Shown: in pieces, positions 3,209-35,213 of the stretch
How positions within the stretch are numbered: position 1 is the stretch's first letter
Layout: each line of letters opens with the position of its first letter
IMG/VR virus record: IMGVR_UViG_3300037049_000005
Location: 1 to 38,768 of that record
Source: a virus
Strand: one strand, 5' to 3'
DNA length: 38,768 bases
The notes under the pieces: generated by a model
What the model was told of the DNA's origin: nothing
What the model saw: the letters and a program-made list of their open reading frames with translations, nothing else
The model's database searches: none
Translations under genes and position numbers: made by a program

Positions 3209-3639
3209 CTGAACCTACGACCGAAGCCGGACGGGATGCGCTTGCTGGCCATCGAGAGGACTGCCATTCGCCTGGCGGGCCGTTCGAGCCGTGCCTGTTC
3301 TGGACGCAGATCCTCGCCATAGAAGCCGAGGCCCGTGCTCCGCTCCAAGACCAAATCGCCGCGCTGACGGAGGCGGCGAACGTCGCCCTTCGTTGCGCCG
3401 TTATCGAAGTCGAGGCAGAGCGGGCCGAGTGGATCGATGCCGTGGTCGGCTACCTCGCCGTGGGCGGGAGAAATGGCGTTTGGGATGCGATGGGGTTCGG
3501 CCGGGCCGAGCTTCGGCTCATGGACATGGTGCCGAACGTCCACTCCGAGATAGGTAATCGGCAAATGGCGAACGAGGCCGCCCTGCTTGTCGCTCTACCC
3601 TCAGATGCTCCCCAGGAGACGGAAGGAGCCACCGAATGA
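3205..3639 (+). CDS. Hypothetical protein
   Basis: 144 residues, Glu/Ala-rich and mainly helical in the centre (IEAEARAPLQDQIAALTEAA), with a HxxDC...C stretch near residues 16-30. The C-terminal end, ending EGATE, matches the end of the gene at 71-310, because the 24 bp across the stop and next start (3620-3643) are identical to 291-314. The start overlaps the nuclease stop. No family recognised. Confidence 0.65.
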   Translation: MTEPTTEAGRDALAGHREDCHSPGGPFEPCLFWTQILAIEAEARAPLQDQIAALTEAANVALRCAVIEVEAERAEWIDAVVGYLAVGGRNGVWDAMGFGRAELRLMDMVPNVHSEIGNRQMANEAALLVALPSDAPQETEGATE

Positions 3640-4667
3640 GCCTACGTCGTATCGCCACAATTCAGGCCGGCCTTCGCGAAGCGGGGCGTATCCGGCTCGG
3701 CTCTCAAGAGTCCTATGAACGGAACGGAGTGACGAAGTTCCGCCCGGTCAAGTTCACCACGTTCCGCCTGACCTCCCGCTCCCGCGAGTCCATCGACTCC
3801 GCAGCGGCGGTCTACGGCGGCAAGGTCACCCGTTGGGAAGACGCCCCGACAGGCATGGGCGAGCAGTGGCAGGTGACCATCGACTCCCCATTCCTCGAGG
3901 TGATCGTCCCGCCCAACGGGTACGAAAGCTCGTTCGAGCTCTGGTCCGCCGGAGGCTGCCAGCGCCGCTGTGACGGCCTCAGGGAAGACCTCTCCGGTGG
4001 GCCGTGTCTTTGCCCAGCTGATCCGCACGAACGCACTGCGCTCGCCAAGGACGGCCGTGCATGCAAGCCCACATCTCGACTGTCGGTCCTGCTCCCGACC
4101 CTCAAGGGTCTGGGACGCTGGCCGCTGGTCAGCCACTCGTACTACGCCGCGGTGGAGCTCGGAGCCGTCGCGGACTTCCTTGGCGACGCCGGCATGAAGG
4201 GCTACGAGGTCTGGGCCCGACTGCGCATCGAAGAGCGATCGGTCAAGCGTCCGGGCACGGATCGCGACGGCAAGCCCAGTGTCGAGACGCACCATTTCAT
4301 CGTCCCGGTCCTCGAGATCCCGGACCTGACCCCTCAGCAGATGCTCAGTGCCGGCAAGCCTGTCCGCCAGATTGGGCCCGGAGTGGTAACGGTTCCGAAC
4401 CTCCCGCACCCCGTCGTGGTCATGCAGGACGGCCCGGACACTGAGCCGCTCGAAGGCGAGATCGTTGAGGACGACATGATGCCCGGCGACCCCGCCGAAC
4501 GCTCCGGCATGTCCCTCGAAGAGATCCAGTCCATCGCCAAAGAGCAGAACGTCTCGGTATCCATGCTCAACGCTCAGGCCAAGCTCTTGGAACCAACCGG
4601 CCGAACCCTGCCGGTTATCAGCCCTCAGGAGCGCCTCGAACTGGCGCAGAGACTTCTTGGCGTCTGA
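3636..4667 (+). CDS. Gp3-like (recombination directionality factor-like) protein
   Basis: 343 residues. Residues about 15-190 fit, from memory, the Gp3/RDF-like phage family: a KFTTFRLTSRSRESIDSAA region, YGGKVTRWEDAP, FELWSAGGCQRRCDG, a cysteine pair GPCLCP, CKPTSRLSVLLP and SHSYYAAVEL. The Cys residues (CQRRC, CLC, C) look like a metal site. The best-known member reverses serine integrase directionality in phiC31-type phages, but no integrase is present here, and the position between a Cas4-like nuclease and a DnaQ-type exonuclease suggests a general DNA-transaction role. The C-terminal third is acidic, then helical. Confidence 0.6.
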   Translation: MSLRRIATIQAGLREAGRIRLGSQESYERNGVTKFRPVKFTTFRLTSRSRESIDSAAAVYGGKVTRWEDAPTGMGEQWQVTIDSPFLEVIVPPNGYESSFELWSAGGCQRRCDGLREDLSGGPCLCPADPHERTALAKDGRACKPTSRLSVLLPTLKGLGRWPLVSHSYYAAVELGAVADFLGDAGMKGYEVWARLRIEERSVKRPGTDRDGKPSVETHHFIVPVLEIPDLTPQQMLSAGKPVRQIGPGVVTVPNLPHPVVVMQDGPDTEPLEGEIVEDDMMPGDPAERSGMSLEEIQSIAKEQNVSVSMLNAQAKLLEPTGRTLPVISPQERLELAQRLLGV

Positions 4668-5356
4668 TGAGCTGGTCCGATGGACGCCTCATGGCGTTCG
4701 ACACCGAGACCACCGGAGTCGACCCCGAGACGGCGCGGATCGTCTCGGCCGCCTGTCTCTGGCGAGGCGGAGACAGCGAGGCGGTCGACGAGGAGTGGCT
4801 CATCAATCCCGGCGTTCCGATCCCGCCCGAGGCCACCGCCATCCACGGCATCACTGACGAGATGGCCGAGGCTGGTCACGATCCGGCCGATGCCCTGGAC
4901 GAACTGGCTCAGTGCTTCCTGACTGCAGCATTCGACGCCATCCCCGTCATCGTCTACAACGCCCCGTACGATCTGACGGTCCTGGACCGCGAGGCCCTGC
5001 GATACAGGGTCGAGATGCCCCACATCTCCCGCCTCCTCGTCATCGACCCGCTCGTGATCGACAAAGCCATCGACCCCTACCGCAAGGGCTCCCGCAAGCT
5101 TGTGGACGTCGCGGCCTGCTACCACGTCCCGGAGGAAGGCAAAGCCCACGGCGCCGTCGCGGACGCCCTCATGGCCGCACGGTTGGCGGTTAGATTCTCT
5201 CGTCTACCGGAGATCGCCGAGATGACGCTGCAACAGCTCCACGACGCACAGATCGGTTGGCGCTTCACTCAGGCCGCCTCGTTCGAGGCCTACCTGGAGC
5301 GTAAGGGCACGCCCGAGAAGATCGCCCGAGACTGGCCGGTGCTGCCACGTGGCTGA
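4667..5356 (+). CDS. DnaQ-like DEDDh 3'-5' exonuclease
   Basis: 229 residues. ExoI motif FDTETTG (about residues 11-17), ExoII YNAPYDL (about 97-103) and ExoIII HGAVADA (H-x4-D, about 165-171) give the complete DEDDh set. This is the fold of the polymerase III epsilon subunit. With no phage DNA polymerase in the genome, it may assist host polymerase proofreading or process recombination ends. The ATG overlaps the previous TGA by one base (TGATG). The C-terminal 50 residues form an extra helical tail. Confidence 0.88.
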   Translation: MSWSDGRLMAFDTETTGVDPETARIVSAACLWRGGDSEAVDEEWLINPGVPIPPEATAIHGITDEMAEAGHDPADALDELAQCFLTAAFDAIPVIVYNAPYDLTVLDREALRYRVEMPHISRLLVIDPLVIDKAIDPYRKGSRKLVDVAACYHVPEEGKAHGAVADALMAARLAVRFSRLPEIAEMTLQQLHDAQIGWRFTQAASFEAYLERKGTPEKIARDWPVLPRG

Positions 5357-5672
5357 GAGGTTCATAGGCGCCGGCACGCACCGGGCCTCCCATCCTGGTC
5401 CCACCCGAAAGGAGATCGCCGAGGCCTACGCCCACGTCAACGCTCGGGACCTGGCCTCAGCCCCAGACCGGCACGGTTGTCGGGCTCTTGACATTGACCC
5501 CGAGTCAGGGCCGTGCTCCGGTCGAATTGAGCGACACCACGCTGGCAACAAGATCGGCACCAAGCGAGTCACGAGCCGATACCGGGTCGTCTGCCTCTGC
5601 GAAGGGCATCATGCCCACTGGGCTCCGCCTCGCAACCGCATGATCGTTGAATGGCTCTCAATCCACGGTTGA
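5349..5672 (+). CDS. HNH-like small nuclease
   Basis: 107 residues. The core, from CRALDIDPESGPCSG through RIERHHAGNKIG to YRVVCLCEGHHAHW, has the pattern of zinc-supported HNH proteins: a Cys pair, the HH dipeptide, and a second C-x2-HH element. The substrate cannot be told from sequence; such small phage HNH proteins can be recombination nucleases or homing enzymes. GTG 5349 overlaps the DnaQ stop by 8 bp. It belongs to the same transcription unit as the exonucleases. Confidence 0.65.
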   Translation: MAERFIGAGTHRASHPGPTRKEIAEAYAHVNARDLASAPDRHGCRALDIDPESGPCSGRIERHHAGNKIGTKRVTSRYRVVCLCEGHHAHWAPPRNRMIVEWLSIHG

Positions 5673-5684
5673 AAGGACGAAACC

Positions 5685-5879
5685 ATGACCTCCGGCATCT
5701 TCCGAGTACAGGGCGGGACGTTGGTTCCCGTCAGCCCGACTCCCGACAATCCCGACACCTTCGTGGCATCTACGGAGCCCGCCCAGGACGGCCCAGACGC
5801 GCAGCAAACCGGCTGGGAGCATGAACGGGGCCATCTCCGCACTTCGGACCGCCTGCGAGCGCCTGGAGACTGCCGGTGA
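5685..5879 (+). CDS. Small hypothetical protein
   Basis: 64 residues after a GAAAGGA ribosome site, 8 bp from the ATG. Residues 1-45 look natural (MTSGIFRVQGGTLVPVSPTP); the last 20 (HERGHLRTSDRLRAPGDCR) overlap out of frame with the next small gene and look like run-on sequence. No family recognised. Confidence 0.55.
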   Translation: MTSGIFRVQGGTLVPVSPTPDNPDTFVASTEPAQDGPDAQQTGWEHERGHLRTSDRLRAPGDCR

Positions 5880-5937
5880 AAATGGGCTCGCGAAGGACGT
5901 GCGAATGATCCTTGCCCGCCTGATCTTGCGGCGGTAG
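5821..5937 (+). CDS. Small helical protein
   Basis: 38 residues (MNGAISALRTACERLETAG...) with GGGAG a few bases before the ATG and codon choice typical of this genome. It overlaps the end of the previous small gene in another frame. The product is predicted to be one or two amphipathic helices ending in RLILRR. It is the last gene before the structured leader of the helicase gene. Confidence 0.55.
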   Translation: MNGAISALRTACERLETAGENGLAKDVRMILARLILRR

Positions 5938-5947
5938 ACTTCCCCGC

Positions 5948-6031
5948 GTAGCAGGGCGAGAGGTGGTTGGGCAGCGAACCTCTCCCGCCCTCGCCCGCTA
6001 CAACTTGAGAGGTTCGCACCCTTGATAACCT
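5948..6031 (+). promoter_or_regulatory. Structured leader with mutually exclusive stems (attenuator-like)
   Basis: The 119 bases between 5937 and the helicase start hold four interacting segments: 1, GAGAGGT (5958-5964); 2, CGAACCTCTC (5975-5984); 3, GAGAGGTTCG (6007-6016); 4, AACCT (6027-6031). Segment 2 pairs with 1, inside a longer stem closed by GTAGC/GCTAC at 5948-5952 and 5997-6001, or perfectly with 3 (10 bp). Segment 3 can alternatively pair with 4. This is the layout of an attenuator or RNA switch. No ligand or termination run of T is evident. Confidence 0.5.
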
Positions 6032-6056
6032 GGACGCCATACCCCGAGACCGAACG

Positions 6057-7922
6057 GTGACACGCCCCAGTTCGGTGGATCGCCTCCAGCCCCAAAACAT
6101 CGACGCAGAAACGGCCACCTTGGGGGCAATCCTGATCGACGCCACGAGCCTCGCGGTCTCCGAGCGTGAGATGGGCCGCCGACTTCCCGATGGCTCACTC
6201 GACCCGAGCAAGTCCCCCGCCGTCGTGATGGAGTTCCTCAAGCCCGAGGACTTCTACCGCCAGTCCAATGGTCGCATCTATGCCGCGATGCTGTCGCTCT
6301 ACGACCGAGGGGTGAAGCCGGATGTCGTGACGGTCGCGGAAGAGCTGGAGCGGGACGGCGAACTCGAGGCGGTCGGCGGCGCGGGCTACCTCTCGACACT
6401 CGGGAATGACACGCCCGATAGCTCCAGCGTCGTGCAATACGCCCTGCTGGTGCATCGCAAGGCCGTGCTCCGTCGACTCATCGGGGCGGCCGGCAAGATA
6501 GCGGCCATCGGGTACGAGGGCGGGGTGGACATCGGGCAGGCCATCGAGCGCGCCTATCTGGAGCTCCACGAGGCCACCAGCACAGCCCACGTCGGGGAGC
6601 GGCCGAAGTTCGAGAAAGCCGGCTTCCGGGCCTACTCGTTGACCGATGCGGCGAAGACCTGGCGCCTCGTGCTCTCCCGAGTCGAGGCGAACCACCGTGA
6701 CCCCGAGGGGCTCATCACGGTCTACGCCGACAGCATCCCCGATACTTTCGCGGATCTCGGCTCCTATGCTCTCTGTCGATCGGTCGGACTGTTCGGCGGG
6801 ACGAAGCTCGGGGCGCTCGCGAAGGAGTTGGGCACGAGGCTCGGAGAGAAGCCCGAGGTCTGGATGAAGCGACTCGACTACCTCATCCAGCGGTCCGTTA
6901 GGGAGTCTCAGGCGGCCTCAGAGACGCTATCTATCACGGGAGTACCCGAGAGGCCCAACGGGCACCAATGGCTCTTCCACGGCCGTATGCGGGTCGGACG
7001 CACCCTCTCGCTCTTCGGTCCGGGATCCGCCGGCAAGACCACCATCGCGGACGGGCTGGCTCTCTCCGCCTGTACGGGGCAAGAGATCATCCCCGGCTGG
7101 GCACCGGCTCGGAAGTTCCCCGTCCTGGTCCTGGATTGGGATGAAGGTGAGGACGAGAGCAAGGCCCGGCTGTTCGCGATGTGCTCCAGCTACGGCCTCC
7201 AGTTGGAGAACTGGAACTACCGCCGGATGAGTAGACCCCTGGCGGATTGCGCGGATGACGTGGGCAAGCAGATCCTTGACGCGGGGGTGGAGCTCCTGAT
7301 TGTCTCGCCGGTCCGGAGGGCAATGCGCGACTCGAACGGAGACCCTGGTGGGCCAGTCAACGAGCTGTACGAAGTCCTCCGGGAGTTCGGCACCTCGAAC
7401 CTGCTGATCGACCACGTGACCGGCTCGGCGATCGACGGCCAGCGCGAAGCCAATCGCGAGTACGGCTCAGTGGTGAAGCGAGACAACGCCCGCGGCTCCT
7501 ACTCGGTCTACTGCCAGAGCGAGGAGCCCGGCACCCGCGTGGTGGTCATCAAGAACACCAAACCCGATGCTCTCTCCCCTCGCCATCCACCCCAGGCCAT
7601 TCGGATCGAGTTCAGTCCCTCCGACCCCGATGGTTCAGGTACCTACGACTCCATCCGGTTCGAGCCGGACGAGGTGGTGGAGAAGGTCGCCCCCGCAGTG
7701 GAGCGTCATGCTCCAAGGGAAGGCCAGATGGCGCGCTTCCTGCGACTCGTTCGGGAGTCCGGACCGATCCCCACGTCCGAGCTGGTGGCCGGCTCGGGGT
7801 TCAGCGCGGCCAACATCCGCCAGATGTCCGTGCGCGCTCGCAACAAAGGAGTCGCTATCGCCTGCGGTCCCTCAGGGTGGGTCATCACCGGCCCCGATCC
7901 CTCTCTTGGAATGGATGAGTGA
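6057..7922 (+). CDS. Replicative helicase: DnaB N-terminal domain fused to RepA-like RecA-fold ATPase
   Basis: 621 residues. Residues about 8-165 match the DnaB N-terminal (primase-binding) domain: QPQNIDAETATLGAIL, FYRQSNGRIYAAMLSLYDRG, VGGAGYLSTL. Residues about 305-520 are a RepA/AAA_25-type hexameric helicase core: Walker A GPGSAGKTT at about 321-329, Walker B-like VLVLDWDEGE at about 356-365, then ELLIVSPV and LLIDHVTG. The C-terminal 60 residues look like a winged helix (IPTSELVAGSGFSAANIRQM). The module between residues 190 and 300 is not recognised. GTG 6057 has no strong ribosome site, fitting leader control. The stop lies inside the first repeat of the downstream cluster. No primase or polymerase is encoded, so host enzymes are presumably recruited. 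Confidence 0.82.
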   Translation: MTRPSSVDRLQPQNIDAETATLGAILIDATSLAVSEREMGRRLPDGSLDPSKSPAVVMEFLKPEDFYRQSNGRIYAAMLSLYDRGVKPDVVTVAEELERDGELEAVGGAGYLSTLGNDTPDSSSVVQYALLVHRKAVLRRLIGAAGKIAAIGYEGGVDIGQAIERAYLELHEATSTAHVGERPKFEKAGFRAYSLTDAAKTWRLVLSRVEANHRDPEGLITVYADSIPDTFADLGSYALCRSVGLFGGTKLGALAKELGTRLGEKPEVWMKRLDYLIQRSVRESQAASETLSITGVPERPNGHQWLFHGRMRVGRTLSLFGPGSAGKTTIADGLALSACTGQEIIPGWAPARKFPVLVLDWDEGEDESKARLFAMCSSYGLQLENWNYRRMSRPLADCADDVGKQILDAGVELLIVSPVRRAMRDSNGDPGGPVNELYEVLREFGTSNLLIDHVTGSAIDGQREANREYGSVVKRDNARGSYSVYCQSEEPGTRVVVIKNTKPDALSPRHPPQAIRIEFSPSDPDGSGTYDSIRFEPDEVVEKVAPAVERHAPREGQMARFLRLVRESGPIPTSELVAGSGFSAANIRQMSVRARNKGVAIACGPSGWVITGPDPSLGMDE

Positions 7923-8034
7923 CAGTTTTGCGTGACATGTCACTCTGTCACTCCTATGTCACTGTCACCCGTCAGAGTGACAAAGTGACACAAGGGGGGT
8001 TTCTAGGGGGGAAAGTGTCATTTGTCACTGTCAC
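7919..8034. repeat. Iteron-like cluster of TGTCAC/GTGACA (candidate origin)
   Basis: In 116 bp there are ten exact copies of TGTCAC or its complement (7919, 7932, 7938, 7946, 7957, 7963, 7977, 7985, 8023, 8029) and one near copy (8016). They include a perfect 12-bp palindrome GTGACATGTCAC (7932-7943) and two TGTCACTGTCAC tandems (7957-7968, 8023-8034). A G-rich spacer with two G6 runs (about 7993-8011) interrupts them. The position directly behind a RepA-like helicase gene resembles iteron origins of plasmids and phages. A transcriptional control array is the alternative. Confidence 0.7.
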
Positions 8035-8051
8035 TCAGGGAGGAAACGGCT

Positions 8052-8216
8052 ATGTATAAGCGTCCGATCACCGTCGATCTCAACCGCCGAATGGAGTACC
8101 TCCACCCGGCATGGATCAAGGCCGCCATCGAAGCTGGTCACCAGCCCACCATCCGCGCCTATCCCCGGCTGGCTGGGGCCCGTCGGGCACGGCCCATCCT
8201 CATCCGCGACTGCTGA
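8052..8216 (+). CDS. Small basic hypothetical protein
   Basis: 54 residues, rich in Arg and Tyr (MYKRPITVDLNRRMEYLHPAW), no family recognised. ATG 8052 is chosen over upstream starts because AGGGAGGA lies 8 bases before it. It is the first gene after the iteron-like cluster. A basic product of this size could bind nucleic acid, but nothing specific supports that. Confidence 0.65.
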   Translation: MYKRPITVDLNRRMEYLHPAWIKAAIEAGHQPTIRAYPRLAGARRARPILIRDC

Positions 8217-8226
8217 GGCTTGCACC

Positions 8227-8817
8227 ATGACCACCTCGCAAGATACGATCACCCCAGCCGGTCAAGTCGTAGATCCTGCGCCAGTAGGCTCGGTCGCCGA
8301 AGCAGGGTCGGGCGTTCGTCCGCCTCAGGCGACTGATCGGGCCGGCTCATTCTCCGGCGCCGGTAGCCGCCCTTCGGGGCAATGCGCCGGCCGTCCTGCC
8401 AGTCAGGCGTCCATGCCGGAGGTCAACACCGGGCTCCCCGGACCATCGGCACCGGCGTCGCTGGACGTCGCAAGGCGCCCCCCCCTTCGCTCGGCTCATT
8501 CTCAACGCCCCGGCGAGGCCAACATCTTCAGCCGTGAGTGGCGGGCCAACGGCACGACCAAGCCCATCGGCACGCATGGTCGACTGATCCCTTCCCTTGC
8601 CGGACCGCGCTCGCCGATCGACGTCAAGGTGGAGGCGCAACGAGCCGCCATACCGCACGTCCCCGAGGAAATCCACTTCGCCCGCAAGGATCACGTCCTA
8701 TCCTCGTGGCGATGCCGTTGCGGGGCTCGAGGCCGTACCTGCAACCGCGACCGGGCGCGAGGCCACGCCGACCTGGCGGCCCTCTTCACGGAGCACAAGG
8801 GAGGCGCGATGGTCTGA
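8227..8817 (+). CDS. Hypothetical protein with disordered N-terminus and C-terminal cysteine motif
   Basis: 196 residues. The first 100 are Pro/Ser/Gly/Ala-rich and probably disordered. Residues about 150-190 look folded: HFARKDHVLSSWRCRCGARG followed by TCNRDRARGHADLAALFTEH, with C-x-C...C and two His residues that could form a small zinc site. The start follows GAGGCTTGCACC. The low-complexity part makes the exact start uncertain; a shorter protein beginning within 8500-8600 is possible. Confidence 0.5.
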   Translation: MTTSQDTITPAGQVVDPAPVGSVAEAGSGVRPPQATDRAGSFSGAGSRPSGQCAGRPASQASMPEVNTGLPGPSAPASLDVARRPPLRSAHSQRPGEANIFSREWRANGTTKPIGTHGRLIPSLAGPRSPIDVKVEAQRAAIPHVPEEIHFARKDHVLSSWRCRCGARGRTCNRDRARGHADLAALFTEHKGGAMV

Positions 8818-8858
8818 CGCCGCGACCATTCCCCCTGTAACCAACGTGAGGTAACAAC

Positions 8859-9389
8859 GTGGATCTCAAAACCCCCAAACCCGTCTCCATCATGGCGACC
8901 TGCCTCTCGGTCTCAGTGACGAAAGGCAACACCGAAAGCGGCGCGACCGGCAAGGTCAACTTCCAACTCATACCGGAGTCGGCCGCCGAACTGACGAGCC
9001 GACTCAACAGCGACTCCTTCGACGTCACCTTCGCCCAGGAAGGACTCGGCGACGGCTACACCATCGTGGGGATCCGGTTCCGCACCGACGCCAATGGCTC
9101 CGCAGTGGCGTTCATGACCCTGCTCGCACCCGAGTCGTCGATGCCGGCGCTCTCTCTGCTCCTGGCTCATTCTCGGATCGGCTCCAACGCCAAGCTGGTT
9201 ATGGAGAGCCATCAACTCGCAATTAGTGACCAGCTCTCCCGTAAGGCCGACGAAGACGACGGCCCCTGTCCCTTCGCCGGTTGCACCCTTCGGGCGCTGC
9301 ACTCCGGCAAGCACAAGCTCGAAGAGGAACCGACTCCCCTCCGCAACCGCGTGGTCAAGGCAGGCGACGACCTGCTCCCGCTCAACTAG
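8859..9389 (+). CDS. Hypothetical protein
   Basis: 176 residues, no family recognised. The first two thirds alternate short beta and helical stretches. Near residue 145, CPFAGCTLRALHSGKHK offers a C-x4-C...H...H arrangement that could bind zinc. GTG 8859 is supported by GAGG 8 bases upstream. Two near-direct repeats, GTAACCAACGTG and GTAACAACGTG, lie at 8837-8860 just ahead of the gene and include the start codon. Confidence 0.65.
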   Translation: MDLKTPKPVSIMATCLSVSVTKGNTESGATGKVNFQLIPESAAELTSRLNSDSFDVTFAQEGLGDGYTIVGIRFRTDANGSAVAFMTLLAPESSMPALSLLLAHSRIGSNAKLVMESHQLAISDQLSRKADEDDGPCPFAGCTLRALHSGKHKLEEEPTPLRNRVVKAGDDLLPLN

Positions 9390-11765: not shown

Positions 11766-13073
11766 ATGCCGCGAACACCGAAAGCCTCAGTACCCTGGCG
11801 CAACCGCATCGTCGGCCAAGGCGAAGAGGCGCCCGACCAGATCCTCGCCAACCCGGCCAACTGGCGCACCCACCCAGGAGCGCAGCGAGATGCTCTCCGC
11901 GGCTCGCTCTCCGAGATCGGCTGGGTCCAGCAAGTCATCGTCAACCGCACGACGGGGCATCTCGTGGACGGTCACGCTCGGGTAGAGGAAGCGATCTCGG
12001 CTGGCGCCCCGACGGTGCCAGTCCTGTATGTGGAGCTCACCCCGGAGGAAGAGAAGCTCGTACTCGCCTCTCTCGATCCGATAGGCGCGATGGCACAGGC
12101 AGACGCGACGAAGCTCGATGAACTGCTCGCGGACCTGAACGCCACAAACCCAGGACTCCAAGCCCTGCTCGACTCGCTCGGGACACCGAAGCTCCCTGTT
12201 GGTCTGACCGATCCCGATGATGTGCCAGAGGTCGAGCCCACCACCATCAAGGCGGGCGACCTCTTCGCGCTCGGTGACCACCGGCTGATGTGCGGGGACT
12301 CGACCAAGGCCGAGGACGTGGCGCGACTGATGGGCGGAGCGAAAGTCCCGCTGGTCTTCACGAGCCCGCCCTACGCGGCGCAGCGTGACTACGGGATCGG
12401 CGACTTCGACTGGCTCGCCCTCATGCAAGGCGTGACGGCGCAGGTCGCGGGCGCACTGACCGATGACGGGTCGGCGATCGTGAACCTCGGCCTCGTGCAC
12501 AAGGCTGGCCGGGTCGATCGGTATTGGGACGACTGGCTCACCTACGCCGAGGCGAACGACCTGCCGCTGTTCGGCTGGTACGTCTGGGATCAGGGCTGGG
12601 GCCTGCCCGGCGACTGGGGCGGGCGGCTCGCTCCATCGTTCGAGTTCCTGTTCCACCTTGCCAGGAAGCCGCGCTACACAGCCAAGACGACGCCGACCAT
12701 CTCGGCGGGCAAGATCAGGAATAGCACGTTCCGCCACAAGGACGGATCGCTCCAGCCTTTCACCGGCAACGGGTCGCCGACTGGCGACAGCAAGGTGCCC
12801 GACGCCGTTGTGCGCGTGAACCGCCAGATCGGGCACGTCAACGGCGGCGACCATCCCGCGGTGTTCAGCGTGGGCCTGCCCGAGTATTGCCTGCCCGTCT
12901 GGACGAAGGCAGGCGAGTCGGTCCTCGACCCCTTCTCCGGCTCCGGCACCACAATCATCGCCGCTGAGCAACTCGGCCGCCGCTGCTACGCGATGGAGAT
13001 CGACGCCAGGTACGTCGCGGTCGCCATCAAGCGGTGGGAGCAGTTCACGGGCAGGAAGGCAGAGCAACTCTGA
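11766..13073 (+). CDS. ParB-N domain / DNA amino-methyltransferase fusion
   Basis: 435 residues. Residues about 20-110 are a ParB/Srx-like N-terminal domain (LANPANWRTHPGAQRDALRG, then TGHLVDGHARVEEA). The rest is a class-beta DNA methyltransferase: LFALGDHRLMCGDST, catalytic TSPPY at about 199-203, and the S-adenosylmethionine motif DPFSGSGTT at about 388-396. SPPY favours N4-cytosine over N6-adenine methylation, but the distinction is not firm. Such fusions are common in phages and probably protect phage DNA from restriction. No partner restriction gene is present. The ATG lacks a clear ribosome site. Confidence 0.88.
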   Translation: MPRTPKASVPWRNRIVGQGEEAPDQILANPANWRTHPGAQRDALRGSLSEIGWVQQVIVNRTTGHLVDGHARVEEAISAGAPTVPVLYVELTPEEEKLVLASLDPIGAMAQADATKLDELLADLNATNPGLQALLDSLGTPKLPVGLTDPDDVPEVEPTTIKAGDLFALGDHRLMCGDSTKAEDVARLMGGAKVPLVFTSPPYAAQRDYGIGDFDWLALMQGVTAQVAGALTDDGSAIVNLGLVHKAGRVDRYWDDWLTYAEANDLPLFGWYVWDQGWGLPGDWGGRLAPSFEFLFHLARKPRYTAKTTPTISAGKIRNSTFRHKDGSLQPFTGNGSPTGDSKVPDAVVRVNRQIGHVNGGDHPAVFSVGLPEYCLPVWTKAGESVLDPFSGSGTTIIAAEQLGRRCYAMEIDARYVAVAIKRWEQFTGRKAEQL

Positions 13074-34413: not shown

Positions 34414-34545
34414 ATGCGCAACCCGAACGTCAAGCGAGAGCCCGCCAACGTCCGCTGCATCATCTGCGGCGCTCCGCTCGCCGAGTGCAGCATCGGTGGA
34501 CTCCACGGCATCATCCGCGACAAGGCTGCGAAGGCTACGGCGTGA
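34414..34545 (+). CDS. Small zinc-ribbon-like protein
   Basis: 43 residues (MRNPNVKREPANVRCIICG...) with C-x2-C followed by a third Cys (LAECSIGG). AGGGAGACACGAG precedes the ATG. The stop overlaps the GTG of the methyltransferase (GTGA), so they are co-expressed. No family assignment. Confidence 0.6.
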   Translation: MRNPNVKREPANVRCIICGAPLAECSIGGLHGIIRDKAAKATA

Positions 34546-35213
34546 GACTCCTTGACCTGTTCTGTGGCGCTGGTGGCGCAGCGATGGGCTACCACCGTGC
34601 CGGGTTCGAGGTAGTCGGCGTCGATCTGCGCCCTCAGAAGCACTACCCGTTCACCTTCGTTCAGGCCGACGCGCTGGAGTACGTCGCGGAGCATGGCCGG
34701 GAGTTCGACGCGATCCACGCGAGCCCGCCGTGCCAGGCATACAGCTCGGCCACGGCAGATCACTCGCTTCACCCTGATCTGTACCTAGCGACCCGCGCCC
34801 TGCTCGACGGCCTTGGGCTGCCGTACGCGATCGAGAACGTCATTGGTGCGCCGTACGGTCATGGGGTAGTTCTGTGCGGCGCAGCGTTTGGCCTAGAGGC
34901 GGACGGGGAATGGCTCCAGCGGCACCGCAATTTCGAGACCTCGTTTCTAGCCTTCCAGCCGCCGCACCCTCACCGCACGGATAAGCGCCCGGTGACGATT
35001 ACGGGCAATTCGTTCGTGTCCCCTATCGTCAAAGAATGGGGCCATAGCCGACATGGAACGTGGCTGATCGCCCAGGCCCTCATGGGCATCGACTGGATGA
35101 CCCGTGACGAACTCGCCCAGGCCATCCCCCCGGCCTACACATATTGGATAGGTTGTCAGCTTATGGTAGCATTAGGGCATGAGCCGAACGCCTTGCCGAG
35201 TGGACTCCTGTGA
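34542..35213 (+). CDS. C5-cytosine DNA methyltransferase, short phage form
   Basis: 223 residues from GTG. Motif [16 protein letters not shown] begins at residue 3; GVDLRPQ (motif II), ASPPCQAYS near 60-68 with the catalytic Cys (motif IV), and AIENVIGAP near 96-104 (motif VI ENV) are all intact. The target recognition domain is much shorter than in typical enzymes of 300-400 residues. Phage copies of this size are frequent, and some modify or help hypermodify phage DNA. The last 35 bp overlap the HNH gene. Confidence 0.88.

Follow-up and report, generated by a model that had tools for sequence, protein, structure and literature searches.

The window (the whole stretch of DNA analysed here) is a 38.8-kb virus record with siphophage genes for the terminase, portal, head and tape measure. 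It contains a helicase gene and, directly behind it, a dense array of short repeats (Table 1). According to the first-pass annotation, the helicase gene stands without a phage primase or polymerase. No primase was found in the ORFs scanned, but a polymerase-exonuclease-like gene is present at 4667–5356. A gene for a Gp3-like protein (3636–4667; recombination directionality factor-like, PF18897) lies in the replication region beside the exonuclease genes. Elsewhere, the product of 11766–13073 joins a ParB-like N-terminal part to a DNA methyltransferase (N6_N4_Mtase), and a second methyltransferase-like gene lies at 34485–35213.

Using Pfam, we found only two domains in the helicase, DnaB-N (PF00772, 6e-24) and the RepA-like AAA_25 core (PF13481, 1e-15). 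The core thus matches AAA_25 instead of the DnaB C-terminal RecA domain, and neither a DUF927 nor a D5/primase-C-terminal domain appears. The AlphaFold2 (AF2) model covers aa 181–621 (441 aa), and the AF2 helix numbers in Table 1 refer to this numbering. In structure comparison the core model matches RAD51, KaiC, DnaB and RSF1010 RepA (1nlf; TM, target-normalised, 0.57). To our knowledge, RSF1010 RepA has no origin-binding winged helix (wH), and its iterons are bound by RepC. The tail of the window helicase is modelled as helix-helix-helix-strand-strand, that is, three helices and a two-strand wing, with a pLDDT of about 84. When modelled alone, this tail matches the solved winged helices of BirA, NiaR and CggR (Z 7–8.6), so the helicase carries a predicted C-terminal DNA-binding domain. 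A profile search of the window wH against PDB sequences returned only unrelated HTH proteins, and a single-protein scan of genome contigs with the helicase gave only N-terminal DnaB-type matches.

Table 1. Features of the helicase gene and of the repeat array behind it (positions in the window).
Feature	Position	Strand	Evidence
Putative initiator helicase gene, 621 aa	6057-7922	+	Pfam, AF2 model, fold matches
DnaB-N domain of helicase	aa 56-133
RepA-like AAA_25 RecA-fold core of helicase	aa 290-454
C-terminal winged helix (wH) of helicase	aa ~557-610
Predicted wH recognition helix, aa 584-596, SAANIRQMSVRAR region, including R588-Q589 (positions that vary with the iteron in relatives)	7806-7844	+	AF2 helix H404-416
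Iteron array, 10 exact TGTCAC/GTGACA in both orientations	7919-8034		homologous arrays in relatives
Exact copies	7919, 7932, 7938, 7946, 7957, 7963, 7977, 7985, 8023, 8029	-, -, +, +, +, +, -, -, +, + (in order)
Imperfect eleventh copy, TGTCAT	8016-8021
Palindrome GTGACATGTCAC, 12 bp, two abutting inverted iterons	7932-7943		sequence
Tandem iteron dimers, n=2	7957-7968, 8023-8034		sequence
Double G6 element GGGGGG-TTTCTA-GGGGGG separating two iteron groups	7994-8011	+	sequence, relatives' equivalents
G6 runs	7994-7999, 8006-8011
End of array unit: ribosome-binding site AGGGAGGA, then 54-aa ORF 8052-8216	8037-8216	+

Counting confirmed the ten exact copies in 116 bp noted in the first-pass annotation, and the palindrome and the two tandem dimers described there are present as well. 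The first repeat overlaps the stop codon of the helicase gene (TGA 7920–7922), as had also been noted, and the last one ends 17 bp 5' of the ATG at 8052. Only 7 scattered copies of TGTCAC/GTGACA occur in the remaining 38.6 kb of the window. The total of 17 is close to the 16.5 expected; since the hexamer is not over-represented genome-wide, the clustering itself is the signal. The Poisson probability of 10 copies within 116 bp is about 2e-20. Across 60 first-order Markov versions of the window, the maximum for any hexamer was 4–8 per 120 bp and never 10. The folding score of the array as single-stranded DNA (z −3.0) is driven by the inverted repeats, and we therefore did not accept it as a sign of a functional hairpin. 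Scans for Rfam families, tRNAs, promoters and terminators gave nothing at the array locus, and blastn of the array region against phages gave only three 24-bp matches, which is the chance level. The 54-aa ORF has no match in Pfam or PHROG. The GC skew is flat and does not turn at 8 kb; because the phage is coded on a single strand, the skew is uninformative on the origin.

We searched viral contigs with profiles and compared the relatives found, all of them metagenomic contigs. The scans gave 10 more distinct helicases that end in a wH (L160, L161, L162 = L163, L164 = L165, L166, L167, L176, L178, L179 = L180 and L181) and one without it (L168 = L002). Repeats that are not conserved beside homologous helicases would speak against a functional array. 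It turned out that a hexamer array of 5–9 copies lies at the stop codon or immediately past it in 10 of 10 wH-bearing relatives, so that in the window and in 10 other members a dense iteron array comes directly after the helicase gene. The array is absent from the lone member without the wH. What is conserved is the position and architecture of the arrays, not their letters: the hexamer is GGGTAA in one member, GGGACA in two, AGTAGC in three, CTGACA in three and TGTCAC in L166, as in the window. Constancy of position and architecture with variable letters is the hallmark of a protein and a DNA site that co-evolve. The hexamer goes with the type of recognition helix: SVKACLYRY with AGTAGC (3 phages), S[VI]ERVLYRY with CTGACA (3 phages) and RIRKIA with GGGACA (2 phages). 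Identity of the helicase cores is 45–98% within and between these hexamer sets. The genes downstream of the array vary among members, and the array remains with the wH. The helicase of the member that has neither wH nor array (L002 3533–5203) has an N-terminal part that looks Toprim-like by eye. Comparison of this protein with the window helicase suggests that N- and C-terminal modules may be exchanged around the same core.

One pair of relatives represents a natural exchange. L162 and L167 come from the same metagenome (3300032516), and the arrangement of L162 recurs in L163 from another metagenome. Their helicase cores are 98% identical, and their DNA is about 95% identical over 1 kb upstream and 2.7 kb downstream of a divergent block (L162:1935–2245), within which identity is only 30–65%. 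The block begins just 5' of the wH, stops at the start of the next gene and coincides exactly with wH and array. The sites are AGTAGC in one phage and CTGACA in the other. Thus, helicase and origin very probably form a swappable lock-and-key pair, as judged from these sequences.

A search for TGTCAC arrays by the DNA pattern alone gave 4 more AAA_25 helicases directly 5' of arrays, two with DnaB-N and two with a Toprim N-terminus. With a profile built from two of these four, we retrieved a second clade. All 13 of its 13 full-length wH helicases have 6–10 copies of one hexamer behind the stop codon; 45 other helicase genes of the same scan, mostly ordinary DnaB, have at most 4 copies of any hexamer. 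A further scan brought the number of distinct second-clade members with arrays to 34. In these proteins we defined a code residue X by the recognition-helix motif R-X-A-[YFW]. When X is Q or M, iteron position 2 is T (15 cases: 14 GTGACA and one CGGCAC, an array that reads GTGCCG on the opposite strand). When X is K or R, position 2 is G (19 cases, GGGACA and CGGACA). The agreement is 34/34, with zero exceptions. The residue before X goes with position 1, R/K with G and S/A/Q with C. Contacts of Gln with A:T and of Arg or Lys with G:C are classical in protein-DNA recognition. On a core-only tree of the 34 genes, both traits require about 10 parsimony changes, and in 2 million simulations at each of 5 rates no independent trait matched perfectly. 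Three members (L286, L289 and L292) have no array at the stop codon, and in them the hexamer predicted from the residues lies about 240 bp downstream, past a small ORF. This ORF, between the helicase stop and the array, has about 75 codons.

We formulate this code for the second clade, and the window appears consistent with it. By MAFFT alignment only, the window (Q589, TGTCAC), L161 and L176 (K, GGGACA) and L160 (R, GGGTAA) follow the rule. Profile comparison of the window wH with the second clade revealed no significant homology. We rejected the idea that the Q/K code holds for every wH tail: the L162/L166 type disobeys it, L166 having R at X and yet GTGACA.

By comparison, the C-terminal domain specifies the iteron, as indicated by the joint swap and by the 34/34 covariation in the second clade. 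On the same grounds, the array belongs to the helicase, and its letters are set by the wH. The first-pass annotation had left two candidates for the protein that binds the repeats, an initiator or the winged helix of the helicase. Since the array varies with the wH, is swapped with it and vanishes with it, the wH is favoured. We consider it very unlikely that the array is bound by a separate initiator, be it from the host or from the phage (such as the 54-aa protein), which recruits the helicase. Classical iteron origins do use a separate Rep, and the 54-aa ORF adjoins the array; however, the hexamer changes with individual residues in the wH of the helicase itself, and it has been swapped together with the wH while the next gene stayed about 95% identical. 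In addition, the ORF at 8052 is without a family match, and different genes occupy this place in other members. Thus, the helicase almost certainly binds the array through its own C-terminal tail, to judge from the comparisons above.

Two further explanations concern the array itself. Slippage can create short repeats and the window is a metagenomic contig, so one could suspect a coding, low-complexity or assembly artefact, that is, a repeat expansion without function. The chance of this is negligible. The repeats stand in both orientations with irregular spacing, and the layout recurs across dozens of independent contigs as well as in complete cultured-phage genomes (CRP-811, CRP-823 and 1N2-2). 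The covariation of hexamer and wH refutes this reading, unless the covariation is itself an alignment artefact. The array could also be an operator through which the helicase or its wH regulates its own operon or the downstream genes, with replication starting elsewhere. It lies between two co-directional genes, just 5' of the ribosome-binding site of the 54-aa ORF, and wH domains are common in repressors, the nearest folds here being BirA, NiaR and CggR. We nevertheless regard an operator as improbable. The array is 3' and not 5' of the helicase gene, no sigma-70-like promoter or terminator was found in 5500–9000, and the downstream genes vary from member to member, the array remaining linked to the wH. 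The sites point both ways and may lie 240 bp further away, and the known systems with such a layout are origins. It is possible that binding to the array serves both regulation and replication.

The arrays of the window and its relatives consist of oriented iteron groups parted by a GC-rich element. In the window this is the pair of G6 runs. They had been proposed to form a structured or easily melted element; the runs are there, but the element is G-rich and hardly easily melted, and no AT-rich unwinding element is evident. A double G-run between the groups is also found in L264, L267, L275 and L294, where G6–8 N2–3 G6–8 stands at the equivalent site. Because double G-runs recur in these four distant arrays, the G6 runs of the window are a recurring part of the array. 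Other arrays have, as separator, either a palindrome resembling CCCCCTTAAGGGGG or a hairpin along with a CTCGCGCGCG stretch. A conserved CTCGCGCGCGCG stretch followed by a CCCTCC-loop-GGAGGG hairpin was seen in L265, L268, L272, L273, L282, L284, L290, L293 and others. The alternating CG stretch between iteron groups suggests Z-DNA or a priming or loading site.

The layout is also found in cultured phages. CTACAA(A) is present in 11 copies in Roseobacter phages CRP-811 and CRP-823, and GGTACA in up to 9 copies in Idiomarinaceae phage 1N2-2, in each case directly behind a RepA-family helicase. The uncultured myovirus MW202867 has 8 copies of GGGACA directly behind the helicase. Caulobacter phage GB2A, Mycobacterium phage Minerva, Rhodococcus phage Shagrat and plasmid pPNAP03 have an AAA_25 helicase and no array. 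The layout is not universal, since 26 more distant AAA_25 relatives with helix-turn-helix-like tails have no array behind the stop.

Similar repeats were observed in other settings. GTGACA-NNN-TGTCA arrays with G6–8 separators occur in L036:1685–1786, L014:11123–11193, L079, L031, L027 and L120. In the two tested, L036 and L014, the arrays fall within the coding sequences of HTH_36 phage proteins. These could be in-gene iterons of the lambda O kind, with the same hexamer and G-runs in unrelated initiators. TGTCAC arrays also lie within Phage_rep_org_N, DUF1376 and unassigned replication-type genes (L131:7877–7937, L145:3747–3828, L123 and L140). TGTCAC seems to recur as iteron among several initiator families that have no relationship to one another. 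At L149:4760–4894, L141:2540–2679 and L133:4797–4851, dense TGTCAC arrays of 6–13 copies have no helicase or initiator gene next to them.

Proteins with a comparable organization are known. The alpha protein of phage P4 is a primase, helicase and origin-binding protein whose C-terminal winged helix binds short iterons. It has another helicase fold, and its iterons lie in ori and in the distant crr; no second iteron site was seen in the window. The nearest precedents with experimental support are SaPI Rep and SCCmec Cch2. In staphylococcal islands, the C-terminal domain of SaPI Rep recognises iterons directly downstream of its own gene, and these sites are origins (Ubeda et al. 2007, in PMC7581432). 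SaPI Rep is a self-loading helicase with a C-terminal domain for a short-iteron origin directly behind its own gene, the arrangement proposed for the window protein. For Rep of the SaPIbov1 type the relative is the DUF927 helicase Cch, and Rep of SaPI5 is akin to the D5/primase-C-terminal type (PMC7581432). In the window, by contrast, the motor is a RecA-fold, RepA-like AAA_25 core with DnaB-N and belongs to a tailed phage; the residue-level code (in the second clade) and the intact wH and array swaps seen here are further differences. The SCCmec protein Cch2 binds iterons (AAGTG) 3' of its gene through its C-terminal domain, with binding and unwinding demonstrated in vitro, and the SCC sites are probably origins (PMC7581432). 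Cch2 differs in its helicase family, in having three 5-nt iterons against about ten hexamers in the window, and in residing in a staphylococcal cassette. By analogy, we regard the window helicase as a protein that works like SaPI Rep and Cch and not as a homologous member of their family. The pRN1 replicon has an essential origin directly downstream of the replication gene ORF904 (PMC4234260); it differs in having a stem-loop of about 100 nt instead of an iteron array, and it is an archaeal plasmid with a different replication protein. Near-identical Gordonia phages are reported to differ by a wHTH exchange in a replication initiator (PMC10684548, Fig. 5E); the passage on this exchange describes no accompanying array change, and the protein family is another one. 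We found no description of this array family and code in the open-access literature, to which our search extended. The self-addressing initiator helicase described here thus has, provisionally, a new motor type, a readable code and natural cassette swaps as its novel features.

Taken together, the data make it highly likely that the upstream helicase has its cognate binding site in the array, which is also, most probably, the replication origin of the phage. We strongly infer the origin function from SaPI Rep and SCCmec Cch2. Several helicase subunits would bind the TGTCAC iterons in both orientations via their C-terminal winged helices, and this binding would assemble one or more helicase rings at the array. 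The DNA would then be opened, and the RecA-like motor would unwind it outwards, with priming and polymerisation left to factors of the host or to other factors of the phage. Opening, loading or priming would probably involve the G6-TTTCTA-G6 element that separates the iteron groups. More tentatively, and with somewhat less than even confidence, we suggest that RecA-type phage initiator helicases carry an exchangeable "address cassette" of wH and iterons with a readable code, that relatives from the same habitat swap it and so fall into replication-compatibility groups, and that the G-run, hairpin or CG-alternating element of the arrays is an undescribed conserved loading or priming site.

For most environmental phages the replication origins are unknown, and this layout permits both the origin and its key to be read from the sequence: when an AAA_25 helicase has a wH tail, the region behind its stop codon should be inspected. 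In one clade the iteron is predictable from two recognition-helix residues. The cultured phages with this layout make the reading testable. Tailed phages with a RecA-type motor would thereby join the staphylococcal islands as carriers of self-addressing initiator helicases. In the L162/L167 pair and the Q/K switch, nature supplies ready experiments on how the origin specificity of a phage changes, and they also bear on whether related phages avoid each other's origins.
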